The notes under the pieces were generated by a model. It was not told the DNA's origin. It worked only from the letters and a program-made list of their open reading frames with translations, and ran no database searches. The translations under genes and the position numbers were made by a program. Below, piece after piece: positions 20,907 through 60,680 of a stretch of DNA of 64,000 nucleotides (its first letter is position 1; the number at the start of each line of letters is the position of its first letter). This DNA is from Zygnema cylindricum (lineage: Eukaryota > Streptophyta > Zygnematophyceae > Zygnematales > Zygnemataceae). Location of the stretch: NCBI GenBank assembly GCA_037447655.1, contig JBBHKE010000190.1, positions 82,985 through 146,984 on the forward strand, given 5' to 3'.

Positions 20907-21931
20907 TGAAACTCTGAGACCTCCATAAGTCCTCAGAGTGGACAGCTTCCAAGAAGCCTATAGGATAACCCTGACCCCTTTGTGTTTTAGCAAAGACAAC
21001 TGCCACCCTGGCAGACAATACCTCTGACCACCTTCACCCCTATAAAGGCAAGACTCCCTTGAGTCGATAGCAAAAAGAATCTCTGCATTTGTTCCCCTGA
21101 GCAAGAAGTTATGGAGGGTCAAAGTTGACCTTTTGTACAGAAGCTCTCTGGGAGAGAGGGTCCTATCTTCTAATTTTTCTAAGTCGTATCTCTCTCACAG
21201 ACTCTATCTCCTGATGTACGGAGCGAATCAAATTACAGTTCCATACACAAAAGTACACCTACCGGTGTACTTTCTGTACGGACACTATACGACATGGCAT
21301 AAATGTCGACACGTGGTATGTCCGGATTCACTCCCTTAATCCTCGGAGATGCCGCGATCCAATGTCGTTCCGCCACGTGTCATTCGATGTGCCGATGACC
21401 ATAAACCGCCGAAATCCTCTTCCGCGATCTCGGCGTTAATTTCGGCCGTATGATTAAGTTCACATTTAATCGTAGCCGCAATAAATACATGCGCGGTATT
21501 GGTTTCTTATCCGTACCGTAATCCGTACTTTTACATTACTGGATCTATGTCTTCTGTAAACAGTTTCAATTAAATGAACTATCCTACGTATAAATGTTTA
21601 ATTAAGTATCAATCCATATAATACGTAACACTAGTTAAAGACTTAACGGCTAAGGCTACCGGATACCGGCTGCCTGCCATCCGGTAGGTACCAGGATCAA
21701 ATTTTGTGACCAGCACATATCCTTTTAGTAAAAAAACCCCTAACTAATATATATTTCTTGTAAACCTCTGGATAGCCTAGGTAGCCCTGGCTCTAGCTCC
21801 CTCTCCAATTTCTCAGTGACTGCGACAAGTTTGAGAGTTGGAGAGAGAAGTTAGAGGTAGACTACCTTGGCTTCTTTCTATATTTCTATTTAGACCTAGA
21901 AAATACTTTAAATGGACCATTAATTTCTACA
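20907..21931 (-). repeat. 3' LTR of copia F
   Basis: A 1025-bp LTR with TG...CA ends on the minus strand. It contains the TTTTCTAGGTCT motif near its start, the antisense tRNA-like module, and the terminal start-codon hairpin (20911-20939), intact in this copy. The inverted repeat CTAGAAAATA (21896-21905) and TATTTTCTAG (21939-21948) brackets the junction with the polypurine tract. Confidence 0.88.
21636..21726 (+). other. tRNA-like Pol III-type module in LTR F (3' copy)
   Basis: Plus strand, antisense to the element. The D-arm-like sequence TTAACGGCTAAGGC serves as an A-box. GGATCAAAT at about 21692 forms the B-box/T-arm and is followed by TTTT at 21723-21726. The acceptor stem does not pair, so this is not a functional tRNA. 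The T-arm is better preserved in the 5' LTR copy at 31147. Confidence 0.65.
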
Positions 21932-21980
21932 CTCCCCTTATTTTCTAGTCAATCTTTAATTTCACACCACACTTCTCCTA

Positions 21981-22283
21981 TCACAAAAATAGCTTAGGGG
22001 AAGGCACAAGTTTGGTCATCATATCTGCTACCATCTCACTATCTGGTCGGTACTCTAAACTGATTATTTTGTTTTCTACTTTCTCTCTAACAAAGCTGAG
22101 TCTGATGTCCATGTGTTTGGCTTTAAAATGATGTGTAGGATTGGCAAAAATAGCGATTGCTGCTAGATTATCACAAAAAAAAAATTGCAAACCACTCTTA
22201 AGGTGACCTTGCTCACCAAGCAAAGACATGACCCACATCAATTCTTTTACAGCAGAGCAAGAGGCCATATATTCCGCCTCCAT
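21981..22283 (-). pseudogene. Copia F RNase H, C-terminal part
   Basis: The frame begins MEAEYMASCSAVKELMWV, with the catalytic Glu region. It continues FFCDNLAAIAI with a catalytic Asp and FKAKHMDIRL, and ends in the VADMMTKL motif typical of copia RNase H. It would degrade the RNA template during reverse transcription. It is separated from the RT frame by a stop or frameshift near 22300. Confidence 0.85.
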
Positions 22284-22319
22284 GGTGGACGGAGCAATAA
22301 CTTTTTGCTGTTTGCTACT

Positions 22320-23310
22320 TCAACAGGAAGCCCTATCACCCTCATATAATACATATCCAGAAGTGCATCTCCTCATCGGAGCATCACTATAACTGGCATC
22401 ACTCCAAGTAGTGATGTAAGTATTCTCCCCACCCAAATGCAACCATAGATCCCTAGTTCCTATCAAATATCTAAGGACTCTCTTAGCTGGCTTCTTATCC
22501 ATCTTAGTAAGAGCATTTAGACTTCTACTCAACACTCCTACAGCTGCAGCTAAATCCGACCGGGTACAATTCATAAAATAGATAAGACTTCCCACTACTT
22601 GCCTGTAAGGAATAGTCTGCATGAACTTCTGTTCTTCAAGAGATACTTCCTCGTCTAAGACTATGACTCCTTCTTCCTCACTCCCCTCACTTCCCTTCTT
22701 CAACTCCATTGGAGTTGTACAGCTATTAGCTTTATCCATTTGAAAATTTTCAAGCATGTTCCCTATTCTTTCCTTTTGAGTCAATCTTATAATCTTTCTT
22801 TTTCGGTCTCTCTCTACTTGAATTCCCAAAATATATTTTGCTTCCCACATATCCTTCATTTCAAATCTCCCCTTAAGATCGGTTTTCAGTTTATTAATTT
22901 TTTCCATTGATTTACTTAAAACAAGCAAATCATCAACATAAATTGCAATAAATATAAAACCTTCCCCATCTTCGAAAACATAGATTGAGTGATCTGAGCT
23001 GATCCAAATATATCCCAGACCGGTAAGAAACTCATCAAGCTTCTTATTCCAATGTCGAGGCGCCTGTTTCAAACCATAAAGAGATTTAATCAGCCGGCAT
23101 ACCTTACTCTCCTCTCCATCCTCCACAAACCCTACGGGTTGTCGCATAAAGATCTCCTATTCCAATTCTCCATGCAAAAAGGTTGTCTTGATGTCCACCT
23201 TCTACTGCTGCCAGGCTGAGAAGTATGCGGACGGAGGGAAATCTGACCACCGGGGCAAAGGTTTCCTCGTAGTCAATTCCCTCCTTTTGTGTAAATCCCT
23301 TTCCCACTAA
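22320..23310 (-). pseudogene. Copia F reverse transcriptase (RVT_2)
   Basis: Two overlapping frames (23307-23104 and 23147-22320) give the N-terminal [19 protein letters not shown] block, then CRLIKSLYGLKQAPRHWNKK, and the catalytic FIAIYVDDLLVLSKS with YVDD intact. The connection and early RNase H follow (TTWSDASY...CTSGYVLY). A frameshift at about 23104-23147 breaks continuity. Belongs to the copia-type RVT_2 family. Confidence 0.88.
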
Positions 23311-23616
23311 TCAGGCCTTGTAGCGCTTGATTGTGTTATATGGGTTCAGTTTTAATTTGAAAACCCGCTTACAACCGATTGGTTTTCGGTTAGGTGGACA
23401 ATCCACCAGCTCCCAAGTATCGGCTGCCATAATTGAGGCCATCTCCTCATTGATGGCTGTCTTCCACCGGTTTCATTCTGGACAAGTCATCGCCTCTCCA
23501 TAAGTTTGAGGTTCATCTTGATGAGATAGTTTAGTTACCTTGTTATTAACCTGTTTTTCTTGCAGTCTTTTGCTACTTCTCCTCCCCCCCTCAAAATCTG
23601 GGGCATGAATAGATGG

Positions 23617-24615: not shown

Positions 24616-24814
24616 AGCACTGTTGAAATTTATGTATTTTCTAGGTCTGTATTGGAAAAATAAATAGAGTGTTGAAAAGAGATGACTAATAGTTCACTTC
24701 TATATTTCAGTTAGAATGTAAAGAGAGAGAAAGAGAGGACCAAAGGCACGCCATGGTTGCCGCATCATTTAGAAGGAGATAGAATGAATTAGAAAGTATT
24801 TTACTAGTTTTAGC

Positions 24815-24895
24815 AAAATACTGCCGCCGGCCGGATTTGAACCGGGGTCTGTAGGCAACTAAATAGACCAACGCCTTATCCATTAAGTTTCTATC
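24815..24895 (-). other. tRNA-like Pol III-type module in LTR A (5' copy)
   Basis: Minus strand, antisense to the element. The A-box-like TTAATGGATAAGGC (24886-24873) resembles the D arm of plant tRNA-Arg. The B-box GGTTCAAATCC is at 24843-24833, T-arm pairs CCGG/CCGG are kept, and TTTT follows at 24818-24815. The anticodon arm is abnormal and the acceptor stem does not pair. Confidence 0.7.
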
Positions 24896-25372
24896 GAAAC
24901 AATTCACGTAAGTCGTTTTACGCACATTTACCTATTGATTCAAAGGACTAATTCGCAGCAGACTAACGAAAACGCGCATTAATCAATTGATGCATGAAAG
25001 CGAATCGAAGCAGTATAAATACAATTGATCGGACAACCACCATTACAGCCGCCACCCACAATAAGCTTTCGGCGGCCTTTGGGGATAGCGTCACGCGGTG
25101 CCACGTGGCGCCACATTATTTGACACCGGAGAAGATGGGAGGAGGAACCATGGCTCCCGATTTGGCACATGTCACCTTGTAGACCATGTCGTACAATGGC
25201 CGTACAATAAGTACATCGCCCATCGTACCTTCTTGTACTATATAGTGTTCCTATTGGACTAGGGTTTAGTAGTAGGTAGTCATGAGTAGGCAAACTAAGA
25301 CTTAGTGATATTTCGGTTCTCTCTAAGAGAGCTTGTAACTATAAAGGTCATCTTTGACCAACCATAACTTAA

Positions 25373-25476
25373 TGCTCGGGTGAGCAAATTCAGTGATTCT
25401 CTTTGCTGCCGACTCAGGGGAGTCTAGGCTACACAAGGGTGTAGTCGGTCAGAGTCTTTTCGTGCCAGGGTGGCAC
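25373..25476 (+). promoter_or_regulatory. Series of hairpins, mostly AGGG-type loops, in LTR A
   Basis: Four perfect short inverted repeats lie within 104 bp: TGCTC-GGGT-GAGCA, GACTC-AGGG-GAGTC, CTACAC-AAGG-GTGTAG and GTGCC-AGGGT-GGCAC. The same series with paired substitutions occurs in LTRs B, C, D and F, arguing for an RNA structure in the leader. A packaging or dimerisation signal is my inference. Confidence 0.7.
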
Positions 25477-25685
25477 TTATTCAGTGGGAAAGTCAAAGTG
25501 GGGAATATTGTCCAAAACACATATTCAAACTTTGCATTCTGTGGTGGAACTGAGCACACGGAAGGTCTTCTCTTCACAGAGGTGAAGGTGTATTAAGGTT
25601 CTAATTGTCAAGGGATCATTCATTTGGGTTTATATCAACTTGGAGTCGGCACTATCTAGATTAGCTTCTTTTGGATCTACGAGTC

Positions 25686-25707
25686 CTATGGGCAATGGAG
25701 CCCATAG
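25686..25707 (+). promoter_or_regulatory. Start-codon hairpin at the end of 5' LTR A
   Basis: Arms CTATGGGC and GCCCATAG pair perfectly around loop AATGGA, which contains the gag ATG (25695-25697). In the 3' LTR copy the stem extends to 12 bp. Confidence 0.75.
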
Positions 25708-27631
25708 AATTTTAGGTTATGGGCCCACCATCTAGGGTGCCTATGTTTGATGGAACAGACTTCACTTATTGGGAGTTTATTATAGAGGGATTGCTTTTCG
25801 AGAAGCACTTATGGGGAATTGTTTCGGGACAAGTGAGATGTCCGCCACCTGACTTTGGAGGAGGTTATTATGGAACCGGAGTTTAGATGAATCAAAAGGT
25901 GAAGGGAAAAACCATTCCGTGGATGGGGAAATAGGGGAGAAGGATAAAGGGACACTTATGGTGAGGGGAGCAATGCTCTACGTCTCATCTTCACTTAGAG
26001 GGGTTACAATTAAAACTGAAGAAAATGATGGTAAAATTTGGGAGTATAAAATCACTATAGCAAAACATCTTGTACTTAGATATGTGTCTCAGTCCATAGC
26101 TATCACTCTTTTAAGTCTTACCAAGTCTTCAGAAATATGGGAAACTCTAAGGCAGATTTATAAGAGTGAGACTATTCAGAGGCAACAGTTAGTAAAACAG
26201 GAAATAGAGGCCTATGTTTATAAAGGCGGTAGCATGATAGAGTTTTGCAATGATATTGTTGCGTTATATGTTGAGCTAGCTAGTGCGGGATATGTAGAAT
26301 ATGAGGAGAGTAAGATTAATACACTACTCATGAAACTCCGAGATGAGTACGAAAATATCATTTATCGTATGCAGGCAATGGATGGCTCCTCATGGACTTG
26401 GAGGTTTACCATGGGGATAATTCTTGTGAGGGAAAGCACTTTGGAGCTTCGTAGGGGAAGTGAGAGGGTAACTGCCTTTACAGCTGGTGGTGATTGGCGG
26501 AAGCGTGATGAGAGGAACGGTGGTGACGAGCGGAAGCTTGATGAGAGGAAGAAAGACGAAGGTAAACCTTATCGAAACTTTGGTGGAAAGAGAGGGAGAG
26601 GAAAAGTAAGGGGAGCTTTGGAAAAGGGTGTTTGCTTCTTTTGTAGAGAACCGGGTCACTATATGGAGGAGTGTCCTTGTTTGGAAGAACTTAGAAGTTG
26701 GAATATGAAAGAGGAGGAAGAAGGGGAAGAGGATGAAGAGGATGAAGAAATATTGGAGCTTCTTCACATCGGTAGAATGGAGAAGAGAGAGAAGTACACA
26801 GAAATTACACGAAAGCAACGATGTGCTTTTGGAGGTATAAGGGAAGTAATAGGAAGGGAGGTACTTGAGGGAGTTAGAAATGATGAGGATGTGAAAGAGT
26901 GTAAAACGTATGACTTAGAAATGAGAAAGTCAAATCTAGGATACATAAATGAAAAAGGGAAAAATAAAAATAATGAGGATAATTTTATAAATATTTTGGA
27001 AACAGAAAACTGGTTGGAAAGGGAGACTTCAACGAATTTTGAGGAAAGGGGAGAAGTAAAACTAGAGGGGGTTTTAAAGGATAGGGGAGAAATGAAATAT
27101 TTAATGAAAAGTTTAGGGGAGGAGAAATACTTTTTGGGAATCATTATTGAAAGTGATAGTGGAAAGTACTCCATGGGAGAGAGTGAGGAAAGTTCAGAAA
27201 ATGGGGTGAGTATCATGGATAAAAATATGAGCTCGGAAGATGTAGATTTTATGAGGAACTTATTGGGGACTCTTGATATAACGATAAATATGGGGGTTAA
27301 TGGTTTTCACATCACTAATGGGAGTGATAGCATTTATGAAGGTGTGCTTGTAAAAGGGTTAGCATCTGGGTGTTTGTCGTTGATTGGGGATGGGGCTGGT
27401 TTTTTGAATTGCAAGAGGGAAATCGGATTCTGTGTGGATGGAAAAGAGATGAGTGAGATAAAATCTTTTCTCGGATTTATGAAAAATGGCATGCAAAATA
27501 AAATTTGTGATGTAATTATTATTTGGGTTCATCGAATACACTTCTTTAAATACAAGGGTATTCACTTAGAGTTTTATGAGGAGAAAAGAAAGAAGAAAAG
27601 GGAAAATGAAGAAAAAAAAGTTTGTGTTTAG
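25695..27631 (+). pseudogene. Element A Gag fused to a decayed RT/RNase H remnant
   Basis: Translation from the ATG in the LTR loop (25695) starts MEPIEF, then meets TAG at 25713-25715, created by the LTR CA-to-TA change. A frameshift follows at about 25880. The long frame 25919-27631 (570 codons) is open. It contains UBN2-type gag sequence, the CCHC knuckle CFFCREPGHYMEEC, and acidic segments. The C-terminal half aligns with the copia RT thumb (LGEEKYFLGI versus LGEAKYILGI) and RNase H (GLASGC...IGDGAGF) but lacks catalytic residues. Element D carries an intact relative, so the fusion is a family trait rather than decay of this copy. Confidence 0.8.
25715..25729 (+). other. Primer-binding site of element A (initiator tRNA anticodon arm)
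   Basis: GGTTATGGGCCCACC directly follows the LTR. It is the exact complement of GGTGGGCCCATAACC, the anticodon stem-loop of plant initiator tRNA-Met as I know it. This is the half-tRNA priming mode of Drosophila copia and yeast Ty5, not the usual 3'-end (TGGTATCAGAGC-type) site of plant copia elements. Confidence 0.85.
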
Positions 27632-27653: not shown

Positions 27654-27694
27654 CTAGAAAATAAGGGGAGTGTTGAAATTTATGTATTTTCTAG
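27654..27694 (+). promoter_or_regulatory. Inverted repeat bracketing the polypurine tract/3' LTR junction, element A
   Basis: CTAGAAAATA (27654-27663) and TATTTTCTAG (27685-27694) are exact complements. The AGGGGAG tract and the LTR start (27671) lie in the loop. The same arrangement occurs at 56471-56511 (D), 40665-40715 (B), 53954-54005 (C) and 21896-21948 (F). Confidence 0.75.
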
Positions 27695-28767
27695 GTCTGT
27701 ATTAGAAAAATAAATAGAGTGTTGAAAAGAGGTGACTAATAGTTCACTTCTATATTTTAGTTAGAATGTAAAGAGAGAGAAAGAGAGGACCAAAGGCACG
27801 CCATAGTTGCCGCATCATTTAGAAGGAGGCAGAATGAATTAGAAAGTATTTTACTAGTTTTAGCAAAATACTGCCGCCGGCCGGATTTGAACCGAGGTCT
27901 GTAGGAAACTAAATAGACCAACGCCTTATCCATTAAGTTACTATCGAAACTATACACGTGAGACATTTTACGCATATTTACCTATTGATTCAAAGGACTA
28001 ATTCGCAGCAGACTAACGAAAACACGCATTAATCAATTGATGCATGGAAGCGAATCGAAGCCGTATAAATACAATTGATCGGACAACCACCATTACAGCC
28101 GCCACCCACAATAAGCTTTCGGCGGCCTTTGGGGATAGCGTCACGCGGTGCCAGGTGGCGCCACATTATTTGACACCGGAGAAGATGGGAGGAGGAACCA
28201 TGGCTCCCGATTTGGCACATGTCACCTTGTAGACCATGTCGTACAATGGCCGTACAATAAGTACATCGCCCATCGTACCTTCTTGTACTATATAGTGTTC
28301 CTATTGGACTAGGGTTTAGTAGTAGGTAGTCATGAGTAGGCAGACTAAGACTTAGTGATATTTCGGTAACTCTCTCTAAGAGAGCTTGTAACTATAAAGG
28401 TCATCTTTGACCAGCCATAACTTAATGCTCGGGTGAGCAAATTCAGTGATTCTCTTTGCTGCCGACTCAGGGGAGTCTAGGCTACACAAGGGTGTAGTCG
28501 GTCAGAGTCTTTTCGTGCCAGGGTGGCACTTATTCAGTGGGAAAGTCAAAGTGGGGAATATTGTCCAAAACACATATTCAAACTTTGCATTCTGTGGTGG
28601 AACTGAGCACACGGAAGGTCTTCTCTTCATAGGGGTGAAGGTGTATTAGGGTTCTAACTATCAAGGGATCATTCATTTGGGTTTATATCAACTTGGAGTC
28701 GGCACTACCTAGATTAGCTTCTTTTGGATATGCGAATTCTATGGGCAATGGAGCCCATAGAATTTCA
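27671..28767 (+). repeat. 3' LTR of element A
   Basis: 1097 bp with intact TG...CA ends. It matches the 5' LTR with scattered substitutions. The tRNA-like module is at 27872-27945 (minus), with the A-box at 27936-27923. The start-codon hairpin near 28738-28765 has a 12-bp perfect stem. Confidence 0.9.
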
Positions 28768-28772
28768 AGCAC

Positions 28773-30418: not shown

Positions 30419-31442
30419 TGAAACTATGAGACCTCCATAAGTCCTCAGAGTAGACAGCTTCCAAGAAGCCTCTAAGAAAACCCTGACCCCTTTGTGTTTC
30501 AGCAAAGACAACTGCCACCCTGGCAAACAATAACTTTGACAACCTTCTTACTTGTAAAGGCAAGACTCCCTTGAGTGGATAGCAAAAATAATCTCTGAAT
30601 TTACTTCCCTGAGCAGTAAGTTATGGAGGGTCAAAGTTGACCTTTTGTATAGAAGCTCTCTGGGAGAGAGGGTCCTATCTTCTAATTTTTCGAAGTCCTA
30701 TCTCTCTCACAGACTCTATCTACTGATGTACGGAGTCAATCAGATTACAGTTCCGTATGCAAAAGTACAGTTGTCGGTGTACTTTCTGTACGGATACTGT
30801 ACGACATGGCCTAAATGTCGACACGTGGTATGTCCGGATTCTCTCCCTTAATCCTCGGAGATGCCGCGATCCAATGTCATTCCGCCACGTGTCATTCGAT
30901 GCGGCGATGACCATAAACCGGCGAAATCCTCTTCCGCGATCTCGGCGTTAAATCCGGTCGTTCGATTAAATTCACATTTAATCGTAGCCGTAATAAATAC
31001 ATGCGCGGTATTGGTTTCTTATCCGTACCGTAATCCGTACTTTTACATTACTGGATCTATGTCTCCTGTAAATAGTTTCAGTTAAATGAACTATCCTACG
31101 TATAAATGTTTAATTAAATATCAATCCATATACTACGTAACACTAGTTAAAGACTTAACGGCTAAGGCTACCGGATACCGGCTGCTTGCCGTCCGGTAGG
31201 TACCAGGATCAAATCCTGTGACCGACACATATCCTTTTAGTAAATAAACCGCTAACTAATATATATTTCCTGTAAACCTCTGGATAGCCTAGGAAGCCAT
31301 GGCTCTAGCTCCCTCTCCAATTTCTCAGTGACTGCGACAAGTTTGAGAGTTGGAGAGAGAAGTTAGAGGTAGACTGCCTCAGCTTCTTTCTATATTTCTA
31401 TTTAGACCTAGAAATACTTTAAATGGACCATTAATTTCTACA
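30419..31442 (-). repeat. 5' LTR of copia F
   Basis: 1024 bp, paired with 20907-21931. The terminal start-codon hairpin has one mismatch here (CTCATAGT instead of CTCAGAGT). The tRNA-like module is at 31147-31227 (plus strand), with a clean GGATCAAATCC B-box and TTTT at 31235-31238. Confidence 0.88.
31147..31238 (+). other. tRNA-like Pol III-type module in LTR F (5' copy)
   Basis: Antisense to the element, 215-295 bp from the LTR start. It has an A-box-like TTAACGGCTAAGGC, a T-arm CAGG/CCTG around ATCAAAT, and a TTTT terminator. It lacks a pairing acceptor stem. Confidence 0.7.
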
Positions 31443-32368
31443 CGCAAATCACGCACGATATAAACTAACAAATACTACGTACGGTACGCATCAAACGATG
31501 TTGAAAAGTTAATAAATTGCGTACCTTACTTTGTACCCGTACAATATTTTTACACTGACGTAGAGTGTCCGTCTATGTTCGTACATTTTAGGAATATTTT
31601 AGGGGATTTTTAGGGTTTTCAAGGTACATTGCCGTACACTCCATTATATTTCAGTACGGGCGCCATAGATATTCCGTACAATTAAAATTTTTTAGGGTAC
31701 ACTTTCATACAATTTCGTACATTTATGTTAGATTTTTGTACTGTTAAAGATTTATAAGGATTTTCAAAGATTATTTATAAGGATTTTCAAAGATTATGCT
31801 TTCTGTACTTTTTTGTACATGGCCGTACAGTGAATTCTACACAAATTCTACGAAAAGTATATAATCAACAAATACTACGTAGTTTTCGTAAAAAAGTTGA
31901 AATCCGTACGAATTGGACATCAACGCATCTATGGAGAAAATAACTCCTACCTTCACGCACGACACGTGTAAAGTACGAAAACCGCACGTATTGCTGTCAG
32001 CTGTCTTTGCACGTTTGGCGTTTCAAACAGAATCTGTAGTTTACGGTTAGGGACTTGTACGGTATCTATTTACGGTTTTATGATTCATAGAACAAGTACA
32101 CTACTGTAATGTGACTCATACTTTGTGCGACATGTACGAATTGGTGACCTACATCGACAGTTGTACAGAAATAACAAACTTGCTTTGGCACAACCGTACA
32201 GTATTGTCATAAACTCATAAAGTGTATAGTATTTTATGGTGTTTTGTATCGATAAACTTAGGGCACTTTCCCATGTAACTGAAACTTTAATCTTGTAACT
32301 TTATTTCTAGCGAAGATTCTCTTCACAACTTTCAGAGCATTCCGATGTAAGCGCAAATAACTTGTTAC
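31443..32368 (+). repeat. Dispersed repeat, continuation and copy 3
   Basis: From about 31945 to 32260 this matches 19090-19415 with few changes, including GACACGTGTAAAGTACGAAA. The earlier part is GTAC-rich, AT-rich and non-coding. It lies on the far side of the copia F insertion from copy 2. Confidence 0.65.
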
Positions 32369-40698: not shown

Positions 40699-40699
40699 C

Positions 40700-43773: not shown

Positions 43774-45056
43774 TTAGACTTTCAGATCTACTGATCCCAC
43801 TAGATTTGTAGTAACCACTCTCCCATCCCCAAACTCTATCTCTACAGTAGGAATCTTTCTTAGCTTTGTGAAGAGTTCTTTATCACGACACATATGCATG
43901 GATGCACCTGAGTCGATGATCCATTGTTCCTGTGGAGCTTCCCGAATTGCTCCAAGGGCACACTTCTGCCTCCGAAGGATCTCATTCTCCTCCAGATTCT
44001 CGTCAAGAAGAAGCTCCCCATCCTCCTCAGATGACTCATCCTCGGTTTCTCCTGACACTTTTGTAACCACAAGTGCCTTTTTCTTCCCTCCGGAAGAACC
44101 CCCTCCAGGGTTTTCTTCGAGCCTCAGCTCCGATAGCTTGACACAATCTGCAATAAAGTGTCCCGACTTTTTGCAATAATGACAAAGACCCTTTGGGGGC
44201 CTCTGTCCCCCAGAATTATCTCTTTCCCCTCTATAAGGTATCTTCGGGTCCTTCCCCCATCGGTCCCCTCCTGTTGCTAGAGCTTGAATGCTCTTTCCTC
44301 CTCTCCTAATCTTCATTGTGTTTTCCTGCACAAGTATCATCCTGACTACTGTAATCCATTTCCATGAACTATCAGGCATTCTCGTACTCGGTACACTATG
44401 TTTTCGAACTCATCTGGTAATTTCATGATATGGGTGTTAACTTTCATTTTCATTGTACCTGTCCACCCGGCACTTTCCATTTCCATATACAAACAAAAAA
44501 GATCCTTACAGTAATCTAACATCTTTCCTCCTTTGTAAGTGTAACTCAATAGCTTTTGCTCAGCCAACTGGAGCTCCTGAATAGTTCCAGCTCTATAAAT
44601 CTCCACCACACTCTCCCACAACTCCTCGGCCTTGTAAATGTGAAGATGAGGAGTGGCCAAACCTTGAGTGAGGTGCCTTAGAATGAAGTTCTTTGCAGCC
44701 ATGTTTACATCCTCCCACATTTGAGTATCGTTCTCCACGGTCTTCACGGTCGCCGCTCCCGATACTGTGGCAATAGGAGTGAGGGGTGTCTCCTTCCCTT
44801 TCTCCTTTTCGGACACACTACTGTCCCCATCATCTGCCTCCTTCGCTGAGGCAGCCGTTGTTGCAGAAAACCTTACTCCCCCAAATCCTGGTGGAGTTCG
44901 CGAAGGTGGACGTTTCACTTGTCCACTGACGATACCCCAGTATCGTTTTTCACACAAAGCTCCCATCATCATGGCTTCCCAATAGATGAACCCAAATCCA
45001 TTGAAGGTGGGCACCCTAGAGGGTGGGCCCATAACCTGCAATTCTGTGTCCTCCAT
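43774..45056 (-). pseudogene. Copia B gag and protease
   Basis: Gag starts at the ATG in the LTR hairpin loop (45056) and reads MEDTELQVMGPPSRVP through the LTR end and primer-binding site. It continues to 44346; a frameshift near 44370 leads into 44379-43774. That frame contains the intact CCHC knuckle CHYCKKSGHFIADC and the protease WIIDSGASMHMC with D-S-G. A nonsense codon at 43774-43776 separates it from the integrase part. Confidence 0.88.
45022..45036 (-). other. Primer-binding site of copia B
   Basis: The minus strand reads GGTTATGGGCCCACC immediately after the LTR, identical to elements A and D and complementary to the initiator tRNA-Met anticodon arm. Confidence 0.85.
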
Positions 45057-46077
45057 TGGACTACAGAATACAGGAAGCCTCTAGATAGTGGTTAACTAAC
45101 CCACTTTAAGCCACGACCACTTCTGCCCAAGAAGGCAAACTGACAATTTGACTGCACCCCTGTACAGCCTGTACTCCCCTAAGTCCGTAGCAAAAAGAAT
45201 CACTGAAAACGGCCAACCAGCCGATAAGTTATAGGGTGGCAAAGATGCCAATTTATACAAACTCTCAGAGAGAGGACTATCTACCTAAATTTTCCTAAGT
45301 CCTAGTTTTTCCTACTTCCCTCTCACAGCTCCTATCTACTGCCTGTACGAACCAATCACAAAACTGTATAGTACAAGAAAGTACTACTGCCAATGTACTT
45401 TCTGTACGGCCTCTGTACGACACGGCCATTAAGTGGACGCGTGTCCACTTTCCACTCGTTCGTACGTTCCTCGGAATTCCCGCGACCGAATGATGTTTTC
45501 CCACGTGGCGCCAGGTCATGCCACGTCACTAAATGCCAAAATGACCATTCCGGGATTTCGGCGATGATGTGCGCCGTTAGATTTGACGTGAAATTCAATC
45601 TCGGCCGTAATAAATACTTGCGCGATATTTGTTTCGCTTTCGAAACAAAATGCGCGATATCCATTTCAAACAAGTACAGTACTTCGTATTTTGTAGAACT
45701 GTATCTATGTGTGGCGTTAAGGGTTTCAGTTAAATGAATCTAGTACATTACAATAGTTTAAATAGTAATGAAACCCTATATCTCCTAACGGACTTCTACG
45801 ACAGACTGGTTAGAGCTAACGGCTACGCCGCGCTTTGCCGGTCGGGGGTTCGAGTCTTGCCGGACTCAACCTTTTGTTGAGAGTGGCTTAACCCACTCTT
45901 TAGTCCTTCCTATGGAGTTGAGGCAGCCATGGCTCCATTGCTCTCTCTCTCTCTCCTTCAGTGACTACAACAAGTAGGGGGGCGAGAGAGAGAGAAGAGA
46001 TAGAGGCAGGCTGCCTACATTTTCTTTTCTAATAAATTTAGACCTAGAAAATATATTAAAAACTACTTATTTCAACA
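45037..46077 (-). repeat. 5' LTR of copia B
   Basis: 1041 bp. It carries the tRNA-like module (45790-45868, TTTT at 45872-45875). The terminal start-codon hairpin (45041-45069) has outer arms ATTCTGT/ACAGAAT, a bulged A, inner arms GTCC/GGAC and loop AATGGA. Confidence 0.9.
45790..45875 (+). other. tRNA-like Pol III-type module in LTR B (5' copy)
   Basis: Near-identical to the 3' copy. It has A-box and B-box (one change, TCGAGTCTT) and a TTTT run, 209-287 bp from the LTR start, antisense. Confidence 0.7.
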
Positions 46078-46109
46078 CATCTCCCACTCCCACATTCCAC
46101 GCTCCGTGA

Positions 46110-48578: not shown

Positions 48579-49632
48579 TGTAGAAATTAATGGTCCATTT
48601 TAAGTATTTTCTAGGTCTAAATAGAAATTTAGAAAGAAGCCGAGGCAGTCTACCTCTAACTTCTCTCTCCAACTCTCAAACTTGTCGCAGTCACTGAGAA
48701 ATTGGAGAGGGAGCTAGAGCCATGGCTACCTAGGCTATCCAGAGGTTTACGGGACACTTATACTAGTTAGAGGTTTATTTACTAAAAGGTATGTGCCGGC
48801 CACAGGATTTTATCCTGGTACCTACAGGCCGGCAGACAGCAGGTAGCCGGTAGCCTTAGCCGTTAAGTCTAGAACAAGTGATACGTACTACATGGTTTGA
48901 TATATAATTAAACATCAATACGTAGGATAATTCATTTAACTGCAATTGTTTACGGGATACATAGATCCGGTAATGTATAAGTACGGATAACGATACGGAC
49001 AAGAAATCAATACCGCGCATTCATTTCTTAAGTGAAACGAATGCCGCGCATGTATTTATTACGGCTACGATTAAATCCGACGTTAATCGGACGGCCGGAA
49101 TTAGCGCCGAGATCGCGGAAGAAGATTTTGGCGGTTTGTGGCTATCGCCACATCGGATGACACGTGGCGAAATTACATTGGATCGTGGAATCTCCGGAGA
49201 TTATGACACCGAATCCGGATATGACATGTGTCGACATTTATGCCATGTCGTACAATGGCCGTACATAAAGTACACCGGCAGCTGTACTTTTGCGTACGGA
49301 ACTGTATTCTGATTGGTTCCGTACATCAGTAGATAGAGTCTGTGAGAGAGATAGGATTTAGAAAAATTAGGAGATAGGACCCTCTCTCCCAGAGAGCTTC
49401 TGTACAAAAGGTAAACTTTGACCCTCTATAACTTACTGCTCAGGGGAGCAAATTCAGAGATTCTTTTTGCTATAAACTCAGAGGATTCTTCCTTTTAAAG
49501 GGGTGCAGCTGGTCAGTGTTTTTGTGTGCCAGGGAGGCAGTTGTTTTCGCTGAAACACAAAGGGGTCAGATTATCCTTGAGGCTTCTTGGAAGATGTCCA
49601 CTCTGAGGACTTATGGAGGTCTCAGAGTTTCA
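48579..49632 (+). repeat. 5' LTR of copia C
   Basis: 1054 bp beginning TGTAGAAATTAATGG and ending TCAGAGTTTCA. The hairpin TGCTC-AGGG-GAGCA is at 49437-49450. The start-codon hairpin is at 49600-49628: outer arms ACTCTGA/TCAGAGT, bulged G, inner arms GACT/GGTC, loop TATGGA. Confidence 0.9.
48784..48873 (-). other. tRNA-like Pol III-type module in LTR C (5' copy)
   Basis: Antisense. A-box-like TTAACGGCTAAGGC (48866-48853), decayed B-box GGATAAAATCC (48815-48805) and TTTT (48787-48784). A second copy lies in the 3' LTR at 54172-54252. Confidence 0.65.
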
Positions 49633-53435: not shown

Positions 53436-53970
53436 TTGATAGGAACTAGGGATCTATGGTTGCATTTGGGTGGGGAGAATACTGACATCACTACTTGGAG
53501 TGATGCTGATTATGGTGATGCTCCGATGAGGAGTTGCACTTCTGGATATGTATTATATGTGGGTGATGGGGCTTGCTGTTGGAGTAGCAAACAGCAAATA
53601 GTTATTGCTCAGTCCACCATGGAGGCTGAGTATATGGCCTCTTGCTCTGCTGTAAAAGAATTGATGTGGGTCAAGTCTTTGCTTGGTGAGCTTGGTCATC
53701 TTAAGAGTGGTGTGTAGAAAATATTTTGTGATAATCAGGCAGCAATCGCTATTTCTGCCAATCCTAAACATCATTTTAAAGCCAAACACATGGACATCAG
53801 ACTTTGCTTTGTTAGAGAGAAAGTAGAAAACAAAATAATCAGTTTAGAGTACAGACCAGATAGTGAGATGGTAGCAGATATGATGACCAAACTTGTGCCT
53901 TCCCCTAAACTAATTTTCAGCAGGGAGAAGTGTGGTCTGAAATTAAAGATTCACTAGAAAATAGAGGGAG
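53436..53970 (+). pseudogene. Copia C RNase H (broken) and polypurine tract
   Basis: TTWSDADYGDAPMRSCTSGY, STMEAEYMASCSAVKELMWV and CDNQAA are present. A stop at 53716 splits the domain, and VADMMTKL follows. The polypurine tract reads AGAGGGAG before the LTR at 53971. CTAGAAAATA (53954-53963) pairs with TATTTTCTAG (53996-54005). Confidence 0.83.
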
Positions 53971-54367
53971 TGTAAGAAATCGATGGTTATTTTATTATTT
54001 TCTAGGTCTGAATTGGAATATAGAGTGAAGTCGAGGAAGTTTGCTTCTAACTTCTCTCTCTTGTCGCAGTCACTGAGAAATTGGAGAGAGAGCTAGAGCC
54101 ATGGCTACCTAGGCTATCCAGAGGTTTACGGGAAACGTATATTAGTTAGGGGTTTATTTACTAAAAGGTATGTGCCGGTCACAAGATTTGATCCTAGTAC
54201 CTACCAGCCGGCAGACCGCAGGTAGCCGGTAGCCTTAGCCGTTAAGTCTTAAACTAGTGATACATACTACATGGTTTGATATTTAATTAAACATCAATAC
54301 ATAGGATAATTCATTTAAATGTAACTGTTAACGGGATACATAGATCCGGTAATATATAAGTACGGAT
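53971..54367 (+). repeat. 3' LTR of copia C, first segment
   Basis: Begins TGTAAGAAATCG and follows the 5' LTR (with more divergence than other pairs) to TACGGAT. It includes the antisense tRNA-like module at 54172-54252. It is cut by solo LTR S. Further LTR segments lie at 55094-55258 and 60331-60680. Confidence 0.85.
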
Positions 54368-55093
54368 TGTTGTTTTTAGAAAGCTTTAGTCCTCTTTATG
54401 CCTCAGCTGTGAGAGAGAGCTGTTCAGGACTTAAGCTATTTTTGGTTGAGTTCGGTTCAGTACTTACCGAAATTAGTGTGACAGTGAAGTTGGGAGTTCA
54501 CGGTTCATTCACACTTGGGACACGTGTCGTCACTTGGGAGAATGCGTGAGTATGTCCTCCGTGGACGTACGGAAATTCGGCAGGACCACTGGACTTCGTA
54601 AAGTCAATTCTACGGTGCCAAATCCTCTAATCGGACCGCTGACAGCCGCCGCCAACAAATAGTGACGAGGCGTGACTAGATCATTATCACTTTACGTTGT
54701 CTTAACTTCGGTGTAAATATTTGTGATAGAATGTTAGATGTACGGCTGGAATGCCTCCGTACAGCTTAGTGTAGTTTCGGTGTATAAAAGTAGGACTTAG
54801 CGAATTTGATTTTTAGGAACAAATGATATGAAAACTGTACACTCAGTTTTATGTAATTTCATTTCTACATATCTCACAGATTTGTGAGCGGAATTGACTG
54901 AAATTTTGTGTGTGTGTTCCTTTGTATGTTAGCTACATTGTGGCAAATATTCAGGACGTTTGGAGCGTTTTTCTGAAAGTTATAGTCTGTCAAGCCATCG
55001 GTATTTGTGGAAGCTTCCTCTCTTGATTTGTTCTACGATGACTACTGCTGCATCTTCTTCATCTTCAGTGCCAGTAATTGTGTCAGAACAACA
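54368..55093 (+). mobile_element. Solo LTR S, TSD CGGAT
   Basis: 726 bp with TGTTGTTTTTAG...GAACAACA ends and perfect CGGAT duplications (54363-54367, 55094-55098), inserted in the copia C 3' LTR. It contains a TATAAAAG box near 54784. Its end holds ATGACTACTGCTGCATC, so this family also seems to start gag within the LTR. The start and end resemble solo LTR E in the opposite orientation. Confidence 0.8.
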
Positions 55094-55301: not shown

Positions 55302-56494
55302 TGAAACTCTGAGACCTCCATTGGCCCTCAGAGTATGCAGATCCAAAAGAAGCTAATCTAGATAGTGCCGACTCCAAGTTAATATAAACCCAAGTGACTG
55401 ACCCCTTGACAGTCAGAACCCCAATATTGATTCACCCCTGTGAAATAACACTTTCTGTGTGCTCAGTTCCACCATAGAATGCAAAGTTATAATATGAGAT
55501 TTGGACACATTCACCCACTTTGACTTTCCCTTAGAAATACAGCCACCCTGGCAGACAAAAACTCTGACCGACTACACCCCTGTGTAGCCTGGACTCCCCT
55601 GAGTCCGCAGCAAAAAGAATCACTGAAAATGGTCAAGTAAATTGATAGTTATGGCTGATCAAAGTTTGCCATTTATACAAGGTGCTCTCTGGGAGAGGCA
55701 GCTGCCTACCCAAAATTTTCTAAGTCCTAAACCCTCTCTAAAACTCTATCTACTGAAGTACGGCACCAATCAAATTACTGTGTCGTACAGAAAAGTACAG
55801 GTGCCGGTGTACTTTCTGTACGGCCATTGTACAACATGGCCAAATTCTCGACACGTGTCATAGCCGGATTTGTTTCCGCAATCTCCGGAGTCGCCGCAAT
55901 CCAACATTGTCGCGCCACGTGTCACATTACGTGGCGATGGCTGAAAAACGCCAAAAGTACATGTTCCGTGATCGCGGCACCAATCGTGGCCGTCCGATCA
56001 AACCGGATACAATTTTAGTCGTTGAAAATACGCGCGCGATATTTGTTTCGCGTTCGAAACAAATGCGCGGTATCCGTTTCATAAAATACATTAAATCGTA
56101 CTCCGTACTATACAAAACTGTATCTATGTATTGCGTATCTATTTCCCGTTATACGAACTAGTCTACGTGTACAAATATAAATATTTATCAAACCTATCGT
56201 ACTATAGCACTGGCTCTAGTCATATTGGTTAAAGCTAACGGCTAGTACGACGGAAGAAAGGTTCCAGGATCGAATCCTGGGTCCGTCAATCTTTTTAGAT
56301 AACTCTATCAAGATTGGCCTTCCTGTCCTCTTTGGACAGCTTAGCCATCCATGGATCCAACTCCTCCTCAAGTCTTCAGTGACTGCGACAAGTGTGGGGA
56401 CTTGAGTGAAGAGTTAGAGGCAGGCTGTCACTGTCCCCTTTTTACCTTTTTATATTTACAAACTCTAGACCTAGAAAATACTTAAATTTCAACA
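55302..56494 (-). repeat. 3' LTR of element D
   Basis: 1193 bp. The inverted repeat CTAGAAAATA (56471-56480)/TATTTTCTAG (56502-56511) brackets its junction with the polypurine tract. The tRNA-like module is at 56211-56288. Confidence 0.92.
56211..56296 (+). other. tRNA-like Pol III-type module in LTR D (3' copy)
   Basis: Antisense. The D-arm region TAGTCATATTGGTTAAAGC aligns with TAGCTCAGTTGGTTAGAGC of ordinary tRNAs. The T-arm is perfect, CCAGG/CCTGG around ATCGAAT, followed by GTCCGTCA and TTTTT at 56292-56296. The 5' acceptor strand does not pair with GTCCGTC. This is the best-preserved T arm of the set. Confidence 0.75.
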
Positions 56495-56522
56495 CTCCCC
56501 TTATTTTCTAGTCTACTTACTT

Positions 56523-58373
56523 TCAACTCCCATCAAAAACAACAAATACATATATATATATTTTTCTTTCCTTTTTCCTCTTTCCTTCATGAAGCTTCAA
56601 GCGAATATTTTTATATTTAAGAAAGTGTATTAGATGACCAAAAATAATTTCATCTTGTCGATCATACATTTTATTTAACATCCCATTTTTCATAAATTCG
56701 AGCAAAGATTTTATCCACTTCATCACTCTTTTATCCACACACAAACAGATTTCCCTCTTGCGATCCAAACAGCCAGCCCCATCTCCAATCTGCAACATAC
56801 ACCCAGATGCTAACCCTTTTACAGGCACATCTTCACAAGTGACATCACACCAAGTAGTAACGTCAAATCCATCCACCCCCAAATATTCCCAACAAACACT
56901 AGTCCCCACTAAGTTCCTTATAAGATCTACATCTTTCGTACTCATATTTTTATCTATGATAGTTACCCCATTTTCTGAACTTCCCTCACTCTCTCCCATG
57001 GAATTCTTTCCACTATTACTTTCTATTCCCAATAAACATTTCTCTTCTCCCCTATCCTTTAAAACCCCCTCTAGAATTAATTCTCCCCTTTCCTCGGAAT
57101 CCGTTGAAGTCTCCCTTGCCGACCAGTTTTCTGTTTCCAAAATATCTATGAAACTATCCTCAATATTTTGAACTTCTTCAAGTATCTCCTCTCTCTTTAC
57201 TTCCCTTATACCTCCAAAAGCACACTGTTGCCTTCGTCCAATTTCTGTGTACTTTTCTCTCTTCCCCATTCTACCGATGTGAAGAAGCTCCAATTTTTCT
57301 TCATCCTCTTTCTCCTCTTCCTCTTCGTCCTCCTCATCCACATTCCAACTTCTAAGTTTTTCCAAACAAGGGCATTCCTCCATATAATGACCCGGTTCCC
57401 TACAAAAGAAGCAAACCGCTTTTTTCAAAGCTCCCGTGTCTCTTCTTCTCCCTCTTTTTCCACCAAAGTTCCGATAAGGTTTACCTTTGTCTTTCTTCCT
57501 CTCATCACGCTTCCACTCGTCACCACCGTTCCTCTCATCACGCTTCCGCCAATCACCACCAGCTGAAAAAGCATTGACCCTGTCCTTTCCCCTTCGAAGC
57601 TCCAAAGTGCTTTCCCTCACAAGAATTATCCCCATGGTAAAGCTCCAAGTCCATGAGGAGCCATCCCTTGCCTGCATACGATAAATAATGCTTTCGTACT
57701 CACTTGGGAGTTTCATAAGTAGTGTATTAATCTTACCCTCCTCAGATTCTACACATCCCGCACTAGCTAGGTCAACATATAACGCAGCAATATCATTGCA
57801 AAACTCTATCATGCTACCGCCTTTATAAACATAGGCATCTATTTCCTGTTTTACTAATTGCTGCCTCTGAATAGTCTCACTCTTATAAATCTGAATTAGT
57901 ACTTCCCATATCTCTGAAGACTTGGTTAGACTTAAAAGAGTGATAGCTATCGACTTACACACATATCTAAGTATGAGATGTTTTGCTATAGTGTTTTTGT
58001 ATTCCCATATTTTTCTGTCATTTTCCTCAGTTTTAATCCCTACATGTGGTACCATAGCTGAGAGCCTAGCTCCCCTCACCATAGGTGTCCCTTTTTCATT
58101 CTCCCCTATTTCCCCATCCACGGAAAGATTCTTCCCTTCACCTTCCGTTGCATCTGAGCTCCGGATGATATTCTGGGCAGCCTCAGATGAATCTCCATAG
58201 TAAGCTCCTCCAAAGCCAGGTGGCGGACATCTCACTTGTCCCGAAACGATTCCCCATAAGTGCTTCTCAAAAAGCAATCCCGCCATTGTAAACTCCCAAT
58301 AAGTGAAGTCTGTTCCATCGAACATAGGCACCCTAGATGGTGGGCCCATAACCTGAAACTCTGAGACCTCCAT
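56523..58373 (-). CDS. Element D Gag fused to pseudo-RT/RNase H, intact 616 aa
   Basis: The ATG (58373-58371) is in the loop of the LTR hairpin. The frame MEVSEFQVMGPPSRVP reads through the LTR end and primer-binding site. Residues 1-330 are UBN2-type Gag with the CCHC knuckle CFFCREPGHYMEEC at about 337-350, after a basic Lys/Arg/Asp-rich stretch. An acidic segment follows. The C-terminal third aligns with the copia RT thumb and RNase H: SEGSSENGVTIIDKNMS with GSEGSEEEGVIVLDEEVS, DVTTWCDVTCEDVPVKG with DITTWSDADYGDAPMRS, and WIKSLLEFMKNG with WVKSLLGELGHL. The catalytic MEAEY segment is missing. The protein presumably coats element RNA; the fused remnant's role is unknown. The open frame suggests selection or youth. 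Confidence 0.88.
   Translation of the reverse strand: MEVSEFQVMGPPSRVPMFDGTDFTYWEFTMAGLLFEKHLWGIVSGQVRCPPPGFGGAYYGDSSEAAQNIIRSSDATEGEGKNLSVDGEIGENEKGTPMVRGARLSAMVPHVGIKTEENDRKIWEYKNTIAKHLILRYVCKSIAITLLSLTKSSEIWEVLIQIYKSETIQRQQLVKQEIDAYVYKGGSMIEFCNDIAALYVDLASAGCVESEEGKINTLLMKLPSEYESIIYRMQARDGSSWTWSFTMGIILVRESTLELRRGKDRVNAFSAGGDWRKRDERNGGDEWKRDERKKDKGKPYRNFGGKRGRRRDTGALKKAVCFFCREPGHYMEECPCLEKLRSWNVDEEDEEEEEKEDEEKLELLHIGRMGKREKYTEIGRRQQCAFGGIREVKREEILEEVQNIEDSFIDILETENWSARETSTDSEERGELILEGVLKDRGEEKCLLGIESNSGKNSMGESEGSSENGVTIIDKNMSTKDVDLIRNLVGTSVCWEYLGVDGFDVTTWCDVTCEDVPVKGLASGCMLQIGDGAGCLDRKREICLCVDKRVMKWIKSLLEFMKNGMLNKMYDRQDEIIFGHLIHFLKYKNIRLKLHEGKRKKERKIYIYVFVVFDGS
58339..58353 (-). other. Primer-binding site of element D
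   Basis: The minus strand reads GGTTATGGGCCCACC directly after the LTR, an exact complement of the initiator tRNA-Met anticodon arm. Confidence 0.85.
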
Positions 58374-59546
58374 TGGCCCTCAGAGTATGCAGATCCAAAA
58401 GAAGCTAATCTAGATAGTGCCGACTCCAAGTTAATATAAACCCAAGTGACTGACCCCTTGACAGTCAGAACCCCAATATTGATTCACCCCTGTGAAATAA
58501 CACTTTCTGTGTGCTCAGTTCCACCACAGAATGCAAAGTTATAATATGAGATTTGGACACATTCACCCACTTTGACTTTCCCTTAGAAATACAGCCACCC
58601 TGGCAGACAAAAACTCTGACCGACTACACCCCTGTGTAGCCTGGACTCCCCTGAGTCCGCAGCAAAAAGAATCACTGAAAATGGTCAAGTAAATTGATAG
58701 TTATGGCTGATCAAAGTTTGCCATTTATACAAGGTGCTCTCTGGGAGAGGCAGCTGCCTACCCAAAATTTTCTAAGTCCTAAACCCTCTCTAAAACTCTA
58801 TCTACTGAAGTACGGCACCAATCAAATTACTGTGTCGTACAGAAAAGTACAGGTGCCGGTGTACTTTCTGTACGGCCATTGTACAACATGGCCAAATTCT
58901 CGACACGTGTCATAGCCGGATTTGTTTCCGCAATCTCCGGAGTCGCCGCAATCCAACATTGTCGCGCCACGTGTCACATTACGTGGCGATGGCTGAAAAA
59001 CGCCAAAAGTACATGTTCCGTGATCGCGGCACCAATCGTGGCCGTCCGATCAAACCGGATACAATTTTAGTCGTTGAAAATACGCGCGCGATATTTGTTT
59101 CGCGTTCGAAACAAATGCGCGGTATCCGTTTCATAAAATACATTAAATCGTACTCCGTACTATACAAAACTGTATCTATGTATTGCGTATCTATTTCCCG
59201 TTATACGAACTAGTCTACGTGTACAAATATAAATATTTATCAAACCTATCGTACTATAGCACTGGCTCTAGTCATATTGGTTAAAGCTAACGGCTAGTAC
59301 GACGGAAGAAAGGTTCCAGGATCGAATCCTGGGTCCGTCAATCTTTTTAGATAACTCTATCAAGATTGGCCTTCCTGTCCTCTTTGGACAGCTTAGCCAT
59401 CCATGGATCCAACTCCTCCTCAAGTCTTCAGTGACTGCGACAAGTGTGGGGACTTGAGTGAAGAGTTAGAGGCAGGCTGTCACTGTCCCCTTTTTACCTT
59501 TTTATATTTACAAACTCTAGACCTAGAAAATACTTAAATTTCAACA
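58354..59546 (-). repeat. 5' LTR of element D
   Basis: Contains hairpins GGACTC-AGGG-GAGTCC (58643-58658), CTACAC-AGGG-GTGTAG (58624-58639) and GCC-AGGGT-GGC (58594-58604), given in minus-strand sense. The start-codon hairpin near 58357-58385 has outer arms ACTCTGA/TCAGAGT, bulged G, inner arms GGCC/GGTC and loop AATGGA. The tRNA-like module is at 59263-59340 with TTTTT at 59344-59348. Confidence 0.92.
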
Positions 59547-60089
59547 AGTAGTAGTAGAATAGACATGATACACTCTCAGAAGCTATTAAGAATCCTACCA
59601 AACAGCTGTTCTTAAGTGCTCACCAATTCTTATACAAGCATCCAAACTTCACAAAACTATATCACAATATAGAGTAGCATAAACAATTATAACTCCCAAA
59701 GTTTCAGCACAATTGACCCGACAACACTCAAGATATAATACTCAAAAGTTTCCCAAAAGCTGTCTGCATTTTTACTACTTGGAAGTCTGGATGCATAATA
59801 TGTTATGGGTCCTAAGTCTTATACTTGTGTTGAACTGGCAACACCAGTGTACTTGAGAGGTACATCAAACCACCAAGCTACCACTAATCTGTCAAGCTAC
59901 CATTGAGCTATCACTCAGCTACCATTGAGCTATCACTAAGCTACCACTGAGTTATCACTAAGCTACTTAGAATCGTATCTATCGCAGTGCTCTATCCTGT
60001 ACAGAATCACATTAACAATATCAGACGATGCGTTGTCCGTACGGAGCATATCAAATATAATCGTGGTTGCGTTGTCCTGTCTCTGTTGC

Positions 60090-60300
60090 AACTTCGCTGC
60101 TGCGTTGCTCTGCTGCTGCGTTGCTCTGCAATATAGCAGTTGCTCTGCTGTATAGCAGCTGCTCTACTGTATAGCAGCTGCTCTGCTGTACAGCAGCTGC
60201 TCTACTGTATAGCAGCTGCGTTGCTCTGTTGTATAGCAGCTGCGCTACTCTGTCTATATAGCAGCTGCGCTGCTTTGTCTGTAAAGCAGCTGCACTGCTC
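60090..60300. repeat. CAGCTGC-rich minisatellite in solo LTR E
   Basis: Roughly ten imperfect units of about 20 bp built on GCTGTATAGCAGCTGCTCT. Each unit contains AGCAGCTGCT, so the array is strongly self-complementary. It lies inside LTR E and is non-coding. Confidence 0.8.
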
Positions 60301-60330
60301 TGAGACTGAAAGCTTTCCAAAAAGACAACA

Positions 60331-60680
60331 AGCTGTACTTTTGCGTACGGAACCGTAATCTGATTGGTTCCGTACATGAGTAGATAGAGTCTCTGAGAGA
60401 GATAGGACTTAGGAAAATTAGGAGATAGGACCCTCTCTCCCAAAGAGCGTCTATACAAAAGGTCAACTTTGACCCTCCATAACTTACTGCTCAAGGGAGC
60501 AAATTCAGTGATTCTTTTTGCTATCTACTCACAAGAGTCTTAACTTCACAGACAAGTGGTCAGAGTTTTTGTTTGCCAGGGTGGCAGTTGTTTTTGCTGA
60601 AACACAAAGGGGTCGGGGTTATCCTAGAGGCTTCTTGGAAGCTGTCCACTCTGAGGACTTATGGAGGTCTCAGAGTTTCA
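60331..60680 (+). repeat. 3' LTR of copia C, last segment
   Basis: Matches 49280-49632, with TGCTC-AAGG-GAGCA near 60487 and the intact start-codon hairpin before the final TTTCA (60680). TSD TTGCA follows. Confidence 0.88.

Follow-up and report, generated by a model that had tools for sequence, protein, structure and literature searches.

Introduction

Promoters for RNA polymerase III (Pol III) inside long terminal repeats (LTRs) have been described in tiny non-autonomous elements, in which they are thought to make template RNA. In Helenus, a group of terminal-repeat retrotransposons in miniature (TRIMs), a tRNA-like sequence with A and B boxes lies inside the LTRs (PMC10886601), and tRNA-like LTRs as a general kind have been in print since that report of 2024. 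The LTRs of Cassandra TRIMs also carry a Pol III promoter derived from a small RNA, in this case the 5S ribosomal RNA (rRNA), and Ajax, like Cassandra, carries 5S sequence. In the Helenus study, which was restricted to TRIMs shorter than 1000 bp, "not a few" LTRs of Repbase were stated to resemble part of a tRNA (Kojima 2024, PMC10886601); related cases may exist unremarked. Here we describe a tRNA-like unit, antisense to the element, in full-size LTRs of copia-type retrotransposons of Zygnema cylindricum. The evidence comes from one copia lineage in a single stretch of 64 kb (contig JBBHKE010000190.1, positions 82,985 to 146,984), hereafter called the window.

Ten LTRs with a tRNA-like unit on the antisense strand

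Nested copia-type elements occur in the window, their LTR pairs being detected by BLAST self-comparison. Five of them, A, B, C, D and F, have two LTRs each, the 3' LTR of D being interrupted. All 10 LTRs carry a D-arm/A-box motif, a B box and a run of four or five T (T4-T5) on the antisense strand in the geometry of a tRNA gene. An initial reading of the sequence without database searches (the sequence-only reading) had counted nine such LTRs; the count is ten, and each of the ten segments that it listed exists. Its statement that the unit is always antisense to its element agrees with the strands found in 10/10 cases. Along the antisense strand, GGNTARRGC and the B box are followed by a T-arm-like stem and seven acceptor-like bases, and then by a discriminator A, a trailer and the T4 or T5 run. 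The units are listed below, 5 and 3 denoting the 5' and 3' LTR of the element.

24815..24881, minus strand: A5 unit; A box 24873-24881, B box 24834-24842, T run 24815-24818; exact match
27865..27931, minus strand: A3 unit; A box 27923-27931, B box 27884-27892, T run 27865-27868; exact match
31160..31238, plus strand: B5 unit; A box 31160-31168, B box 31207-31215, T run 31235-31238; exact match
21648..21726, plus strand: B3 unit; one B-box mismatch
45808..45875, plus strand: C5 unit; exact match
40429..40496, plus strand: C3 unit; A box 40429-40437, B box 40469-40477, T run 40493-40496; exact match
48784..48861, minus strand: D5 unit; one B-box mismatch (GATAAAATC)
54163..54240, minus strand: D3 unit; A box 54232-54240, B box 54185-54193, T run 54163-54166; exact match
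59279..59347, plus strand: F5 unit; exact match, T5 run, 5/5 T-stem pairs by reading
56227..56295, plus strand: F3 unit; A box 56227-56235, B box 56268-56276; exact match

The gap between the A motif and the B box is 30 bases in A, 32 in F, 31 in C and 38 in B and D, and the T run follows the discriminator A after 3 bases in A, C and F and after 6-7 bases in D and B. Counted from the LTR start, the first A-box base lies at 261 (A), 268 (F), 271 (C, D3) or 283-285 (B5, B3, D5); the T run falls between +194 and +207. The D-arm sequence reads GGTTARAGC in C and F, GGCTAAGGC in B and D, and GGATAAGGC in A. Two D-arm types had been distinguished before, with their labels swapped; the sequences share the same alignment columns, indicating a single motif.

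Within the LTR, the unit is at the outer end, and a TATA-like motif lies about 460-610 bp further in, at +720 or +723 in A (another at +619), +818 in F, +822 in C and +893 in D5; a variant motif was found at +793 in B5 and none in B3. In the 5' LTR, the unit stands between the flanking DNA and the likely promoter for RNA polymerase II (Pol II), pointing away from that promoter.

Specificity of the Pol III-type pattern

The box consensus patterns are those generally known for tRNA genes. They were combined into a joint pattern, GGNTARRGC, GWTCRANNC and a following TTTT, which, for the A box, demands no more than the 3' part and was picked after the units had been seen. In its exact form the joint pattern has 8 matches in 64 kb, every one of them in an LTR of the five elements; 60 dinucleotide shuffles gave none. 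With one mismatch allowed in the B box, D5 and B3 were recovered and all 10 LTRs were detected, in 11 rows including one duplicate of B5, when 0.2 were expected. Neither of these two strict settings gave a match outside the LTRs within the window. When one mismatch was allowed in each box, 14 rows were obtained where 4.2 were expected, and 3 lay outside the LTRs; therefore only the strict forms are informative. The proposal of Pol III-type signals at a fixed place of the LTR was borne out, in 8/10 LTRs exactly and in 10/10 with one B-box mismatch. Copies lacking the boxes or the T run had been named as what would speak against such a unit; within this window, 10/10 LTRs have it.

The sequence signals of a type 2 Pol III promoter, namely A box, B box and T run, are present in the proper order and spacing. 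A T4 stands at the right distance in 10/10 LTRs (by chance, about 3% of six-base windows would contain one, as estimated from the antisense strands of A5, F5, C5 and B5), and TTTT is absent from the interval between 15 bases before the A box and the B box in all ten. Conservation of the T run suggests transcription of the unit by Pol III, with a stop at this run.

Conservation of the boxes within U3

In a MAFFT alignment of the LTRs, the A motif occupies the same columns in 10/10 and the B core in 8/10, the exceptions being the mismatched B3 and D5. Using A5, F5, C3 and B5 as representatives (D, close to B, was omitted), identity was 0.78 in the boxes and 0.41 between them; the remainder of U3 reached 0.49 and the 100-column flanks 0.37 and 0.48. 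Of the 443 windows of the same shape within U3, only 3 are as conserved as the boxes, and these include the box window itself and the one next to it. The proportion of invariant columns was 13/20 in the boxes versus 31% of the ungapped U3 columns (P 0.0017 in a binomial test that treats columns as independent), and 5/30 for the ungapped columns between the boxes. When the boxes and the T run were masked and the LTRs realigned, the A box fell in one column in 9/9 LTRs, the D3 piece being omitted.

The same pattern is observed for the most diverged LTR, that of A, with 0.77 identity in the boxes versus 0.41 between them. Compared with F, C and B, the U3 of A is 38-45% alike outside the boxes and 70-85% in the boxes, and in some stretches it is near the shuffled background (z 0.4 to 10.1, depending on stretch and partner). 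The youngest element, F, of which the LTRs are 99.9% alike and the insertion is very recent, has both units intact. The predicted excess of box conservation over the rest of the LTR therefore holds for U3; it does not extend to R/U5 and the core promoter, which are as conserved as the boxes or more.

Absence of a tRNA gene and of a conserved RNA fold

The view of the sequence-only reading that these units are not tRNAs was confirmed. ARAGORN detected 0 genes at default setting, Rfam scans gave no tRNA in the 64-kb window, and by reading no pairing is seen between the acceptor strand and the 5' end of the unit; true tRNA genes were rejected. At a 40% score threshold, ARAGORN reported 380 "genes" over the window, which is uninformative. 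Three of the ten units (F5, A3 and C3, hence none from B or D) were also scanned alone with Rfam. F5 gave a tRNA match of 10.9 bits, on the T arm only and below the cut-off of 29, and for A3 and C3 there was no tRNA match at E up to 10; weak mascRNA-like matches of A3 (E 9.5) and C3 (E 0.9) were taken as chance.

A conserved RNA fold was likewise rejected, the six units examined being inconsistent between families: fold z-scores were -0.3 (A5), 0.4 (A3), -2.3 (F5), -3.2 (C3), -2.6 (B5) and -0.9 (D5). T-stem pairs form in 37/45 cells (82%), a percentage reached by 8/500 shuffles, and the covariation score of the T stem was also reached by 8/500. Two of its five pairs changed on both sides, which 165/500 shuffles equal, and the outermost pair fails in 6/9 sequences. 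This modest pairing fits descent from the T arm of a tRNA.

As to the source of the unit, a short interspersed nuclear element (SINE) with its body in the LTR was rejected, the T run standing 3-7 bases past the discriminator in 10/10 LTRs; an old, trimmed SINE could still be the source. A mature tRNA or primer was rejected too, since by reading all ten units lack a CCA after the acceptor-like bases. Two hints to a parent tRNA were not used, the segments being too short to settle the question: the D arm of A is close to that of human tRNA-Arg (PMC9889914), and the T loop of F starts with A as in the human initiator tRNA (PMC8216282). With its tRNA-like signals and T arm, the LTR segment probably derives from a tRNA gene.

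Proposed role of the unit and alternative explanations

We consider it probable (about 0.7) that the unit is a Pol III-type unit kept by selection, whatever its role. This estimate sums over three roles, of which a chromatin or transcription boundary takes the largest share, interference with the element's own expression a much smaller one, and a landing pad for integration a very small remainder. As proposed, a Pol III promoter unit derived from a tRNA gene (A-box part, B box and terminator) would lie antisense in distal U3 and would be maintained by selection at the level of DNA, while tRNA fold, acceptor pairing and the sequence between the boxes would not be kept. TFIIIC or Pol III would bind the unit, Pol III making at most a short antisense RNA of about 90 nt that ends with the T run; once bound, the complex would form a boundary between the flanking chromatin or read-through transcription and the Pol II promoter of the element itself. 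A boundary as the main role is tentative, with somewhat less than even odds; it fits better than a functional RNA because of the anatomy of the unit and because the DNA boxes rather than an RNA are conserved.

Several observations weigh against a selected boundary unit. Over its whole length the unit scarcely exceeds the remaining U3 in identity (0.53 vs 0.49), a sliding 40-column profile, in which C5 was used, gives the unit as a rise from a local trough and no peak, and over the whole LTR 30/757 shape-matched windows are as conserved as the boxes. The choice of C3 and B5 as representatives, instead of C5 and B3 with their altered B boxes, favours the boxes. Masked realignment shifts the B box by up to 9 and the T run by up to 17 columns, and masked blocks of N may attract each other. 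The 5' part of an A box is TRGY, matched at 4/4 positions by F only, at 3 by A3 and at 2 by A5, B, C and D; the motif gap of 30-38 bases exceeds the 26 bases of a tRNA without intron. Finally, the support is drawn from the sequence of one window and one lineage, the five elements not being five independent events, and the present evidence of this kind does not separate a boundary from transcriptional interference.

Interference, or antisense control of the element RNA, is the main rival to a boundary: an antisense Pol III RNA complementary to U3 at the 3' end of the element RNA, or obstruction of Pol II, would limit the element's own expression. The antisense orientation in 10/10 LTRs and the conserved terminator agree with such a role, and antisense Pol III interference with Pol II has a precedent in the mammalian-wide interspersed repeat (MIR) of Polr3e (PMC5358760). 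We regard it as unlikely, however, as the unit of the 5' LTR lies upstream of the likely Pol II promoter (+720 to +893) and outside the main transcript, and the inter-box interval is poorly conserved, although an antisense RNA need not be conserved. A third role is suggested by yeast: the integrases of Ty1 and Ty3 target Pol III complexes, and an LTR unit could in the same manner steer new copies into old ones, away from genes. The nesting of elements in the window is in agreement with this idea, as are the later insertions that split the D 3' LTR in two places, each upstream of the D3 unit; the interruptions are two only, F appears in intervening DNA and not directly in the LTR, and A is inserted in the internal part of B, so that a landing pad is very improbable.

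The remaining explanations need no Pol III function. The unit could be a fossil, left by a single insertion of a tRNA gene or SINE fragment into an ancestral LTR and carried along since, in agreement with the single lineage, the persistence of T-stem pairs in 37/45 cells, the tRNA-like Rfam score of the F5 T arm and the near-equal conservation of whole unit and U3. In contrast, the boxes and the T run were kept while the sequence between and around them diverged, even in A, where the rest of U3 is just 38-45% alike to F, C and B; a fossil without function is accordingly given a low probability. Still less probable is that a Pol II regulatory site or a hairpin of the sense RNA just happens to look like tRNA boxes. 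Being a near-palindrome, the T arm gives a hairpin on both strands, the pairing of its stem (82% of cells) and the two pairs changed on both sides would suit a hairpin, and F5, C3 and B5 fold more stably than shuffles. This explanation, however, needs A box, B box and terminator to have met by chance in order, spacing and strand (0/60 shuffles), the folds of A5, A3 and D5 are ordinary, and the outermost T-stem pair fails in most sequences. Taken together, a selected Pol III-type unit, tentatively a boundary, remains the preferred explanation.

The retrotransposons and other features of the window

The LTRs of the five elements are as follows.

24621..25712, plus strand: element A 5' LTR; 96.9% identical to 27671-28765; target-site duplication (TSD) AGCAC
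27671..28765, plus strand: element A 3' LTR; BLAST self-match to the A 5' LTR
30419..31443, minus strand: element B 5' LTR; 93.0% identical to 20907-21932
20907..21932, minus strand: element B 3' LTR; self-match to the B 5' LTR
45037..46078, minus strand: element C 5' LTR; 98.6% identical to 39659-40699; TSD AGATG
39659..40699, minus strand: element C 3' LTR; self-match to the C 5' LTR
48579..49632, plus strand: element D 5' LTR, by self-comparison; TSD TTGCA
53970..54369, plus strand: element D 3' LTR, first piece; 87.1% identical to 48579-48988
55093-55252 and 60331-60684: element D 3' LTR, further pieces, split by later insertions
58354..59546, minus strand: element F 5' LTR; 99.9% identical to 55302-56494; TSD CTACT
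55302..56494, minus strand: element F 3' LTR; self-match to the F 5' LTR

The nine complete LTRs measure 1025-1193 bp. The five-base TSDs, read from the sequence, are exact in A, C, D and F and agree in 4/5 bases in B, within the internal part of which A is nested. Gag, integrase, RVT_2, LTRs of the TG..CA type and the 5 bp TSD place the elements in the Copia superfamily. A domain scan detected the copia gag domain in open reading frames (ORFs) of A, B, C and F. The ORFs of B, with gag and RVT_2 domains, match PF14223, PF22936, PF13976 and PF07727; that of D, with integrase, matches PF00665, PF25597 and PF13976; and that of C matches PF14223 (gag). The gag ORF of D was recognised solely by its 91.8% DNA identity to B. 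By self-comparison, B, C and D are alike in DNA along gag-pol; C probably has pol too, judging from its similarity to B and D, and gag-pol appears to be carried by three of the five elements. A and F have a single long ORF each with the copia gag domain only (25853-27631 and 56523-58379), and they are gag-only copia relatives with full-length LTRs, probably mobilised by elements like B, C and D. The internal DNA and R/U5 are common to A and F (86.4% over 1.5 kb) and most of the U3 of A is strongly diverged, as if it had been exchanged or were fast-evolving.

The primer-binding site (PBS) GGTTATGGGCCCACC was found in A (25715-25729, plus strand), C (45022-45036, minus strand) and F (58339-58353, minus strand); reading of the sequence gave a PBS one base off GGTTATGGGCCCACC in D (49633-49647, plus strand) and a decayed one in B. 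This PBS is complementary in 14/15 bases to the anticodon arm of the human initiator tRNA (PMC8216282), and would indicate half-tRNA priming from that arm. Anticodon-loop priming is known in Drosophila copia and in Ty5 (PMC10886601).

A solo-LTR-like insert (54368-55093, TGTTGTT..AACAACA) with a 5-bp duplication, CGGAT, lies inside the D 3' LTR and gave no match to the Pol III unit pattern. Between the pieces of the same LTR, adjoining F, there is a minisatellite of the CAGCTGCTCTACTGTATAG type at 60100-60300. Elsewhere in the window, pieces of non-LTR retrotransposons occupy 466-3073, and for the reverse transcriptase at 2159-3073, 17 of the 23 matches listed come from the liverwort Riccia fluitans (45-58% identical), the one organism to be named among them. 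For the copia ORFs, no liverwort occurs among the organism-named matches listed (the best 120 of 593, and 8/8 in a second search). A perfect 32-base palindrome at 4457-4508 and large inverted repeats within 3547-6018 (3547-3937/6018-5631 and 4702-5021/5714-5396) perhaps represent an element of the fold-back type.

Comparison with known systems

The sequence-only reading knew of no tRNA counterpart to the 5S promoters of Cassandra, a statement that has to be withdrawn in view of the tRNA-like LTRs of Helenus (PMC10886601). Helenus resembles the window elements in more than one respect: a tRNA function was judged unlikely, as for the window units, its TSDs are 5 bp in fungi and plants, and its fungal families share Copia dependence and anticodon-loop primers (PMC10886601). 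The differences are in size and orientation. Helenus elements measure 311-1263 bp, with a longest named LTR of 323 bp compared with 1025-1193 bp in the window, and the sole plant family, from Selaginella, has an LTR of 120 bp (PMC10886601). The LTR lengths and the gag ORFs rule out the window elements as Helenus or other TRIMs, which are short, screened below 1000 bp and protein-less. The tRNA part of Helenus is proposed to act as promoter for the template RNA of the element itself (PMC10886601), whereas the window unit is antisense in distal U3; by analogy, the window unit may still work like it. In the same report it is argued that autonomous counterparts have to rely on Pol II and that a long stretch of LTR in common with TRIMp3 is improbable for them; the word "antisense" is absent from its main text (PMC10886601).

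Among the papers listed by searches of open-licence PMC literature, judged by titles and the start of abstracts and with Repbase and subscription papers outside this scope, no antisense tRNA-like unit in autonomous copia LTRs was found. Searches for relatives in viral contigs (protein and DNA pattern) and in prokaryotic genome contigs (DNA pattern) gave zero, which says little given their prokaryotic and viral content.

Cassandra differs from the window elements in that its promoter is of 5S and not of tRNA origin, and in being non-autonomous and 565-860 bp long (PMC10886601). Pol III-type elements as possible chromatin boundaries are known from tRNA-derived SINEs and TFIIIC sites, for example the B2 SINE (PMC8136502); SINEs are free-standing, and the LTR unit has its T run 3-7 bases past the tRNA-like 3' end, as in a tRNA gene. 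Bovine leukemia virus is a further reverse-transcribing element with Pol III transcription, there of a microRNA cluster and not of a tRNA-like unit in a copia LTR (PMC4992882).

Against this background, a Pol III unit conserved in antisense orientation in LTRs of full size would, if true, be another use of such promoters, as boundary or self-regulator, and would bear on whether chromatin boundaries can be part of the mobile elements themselves. TFIIIC sites would then spread through the genome, and counts of tRNA fragments and pseudogenes could be inflated. The unit suggests that a mobile element may have recruited a second kind of promoter. The wider proposal, to which we give slightly less than an even chance, is that of dual-polymerase LTRs, in which a Pol II promoter would be combined with an antisense Pol III promoter, active in vivo, selected and lineage-wide, in autonomous copia elements and their gag-only relatives, so that each new copy would bring with it a Pol III boundary or an antisense transcript.

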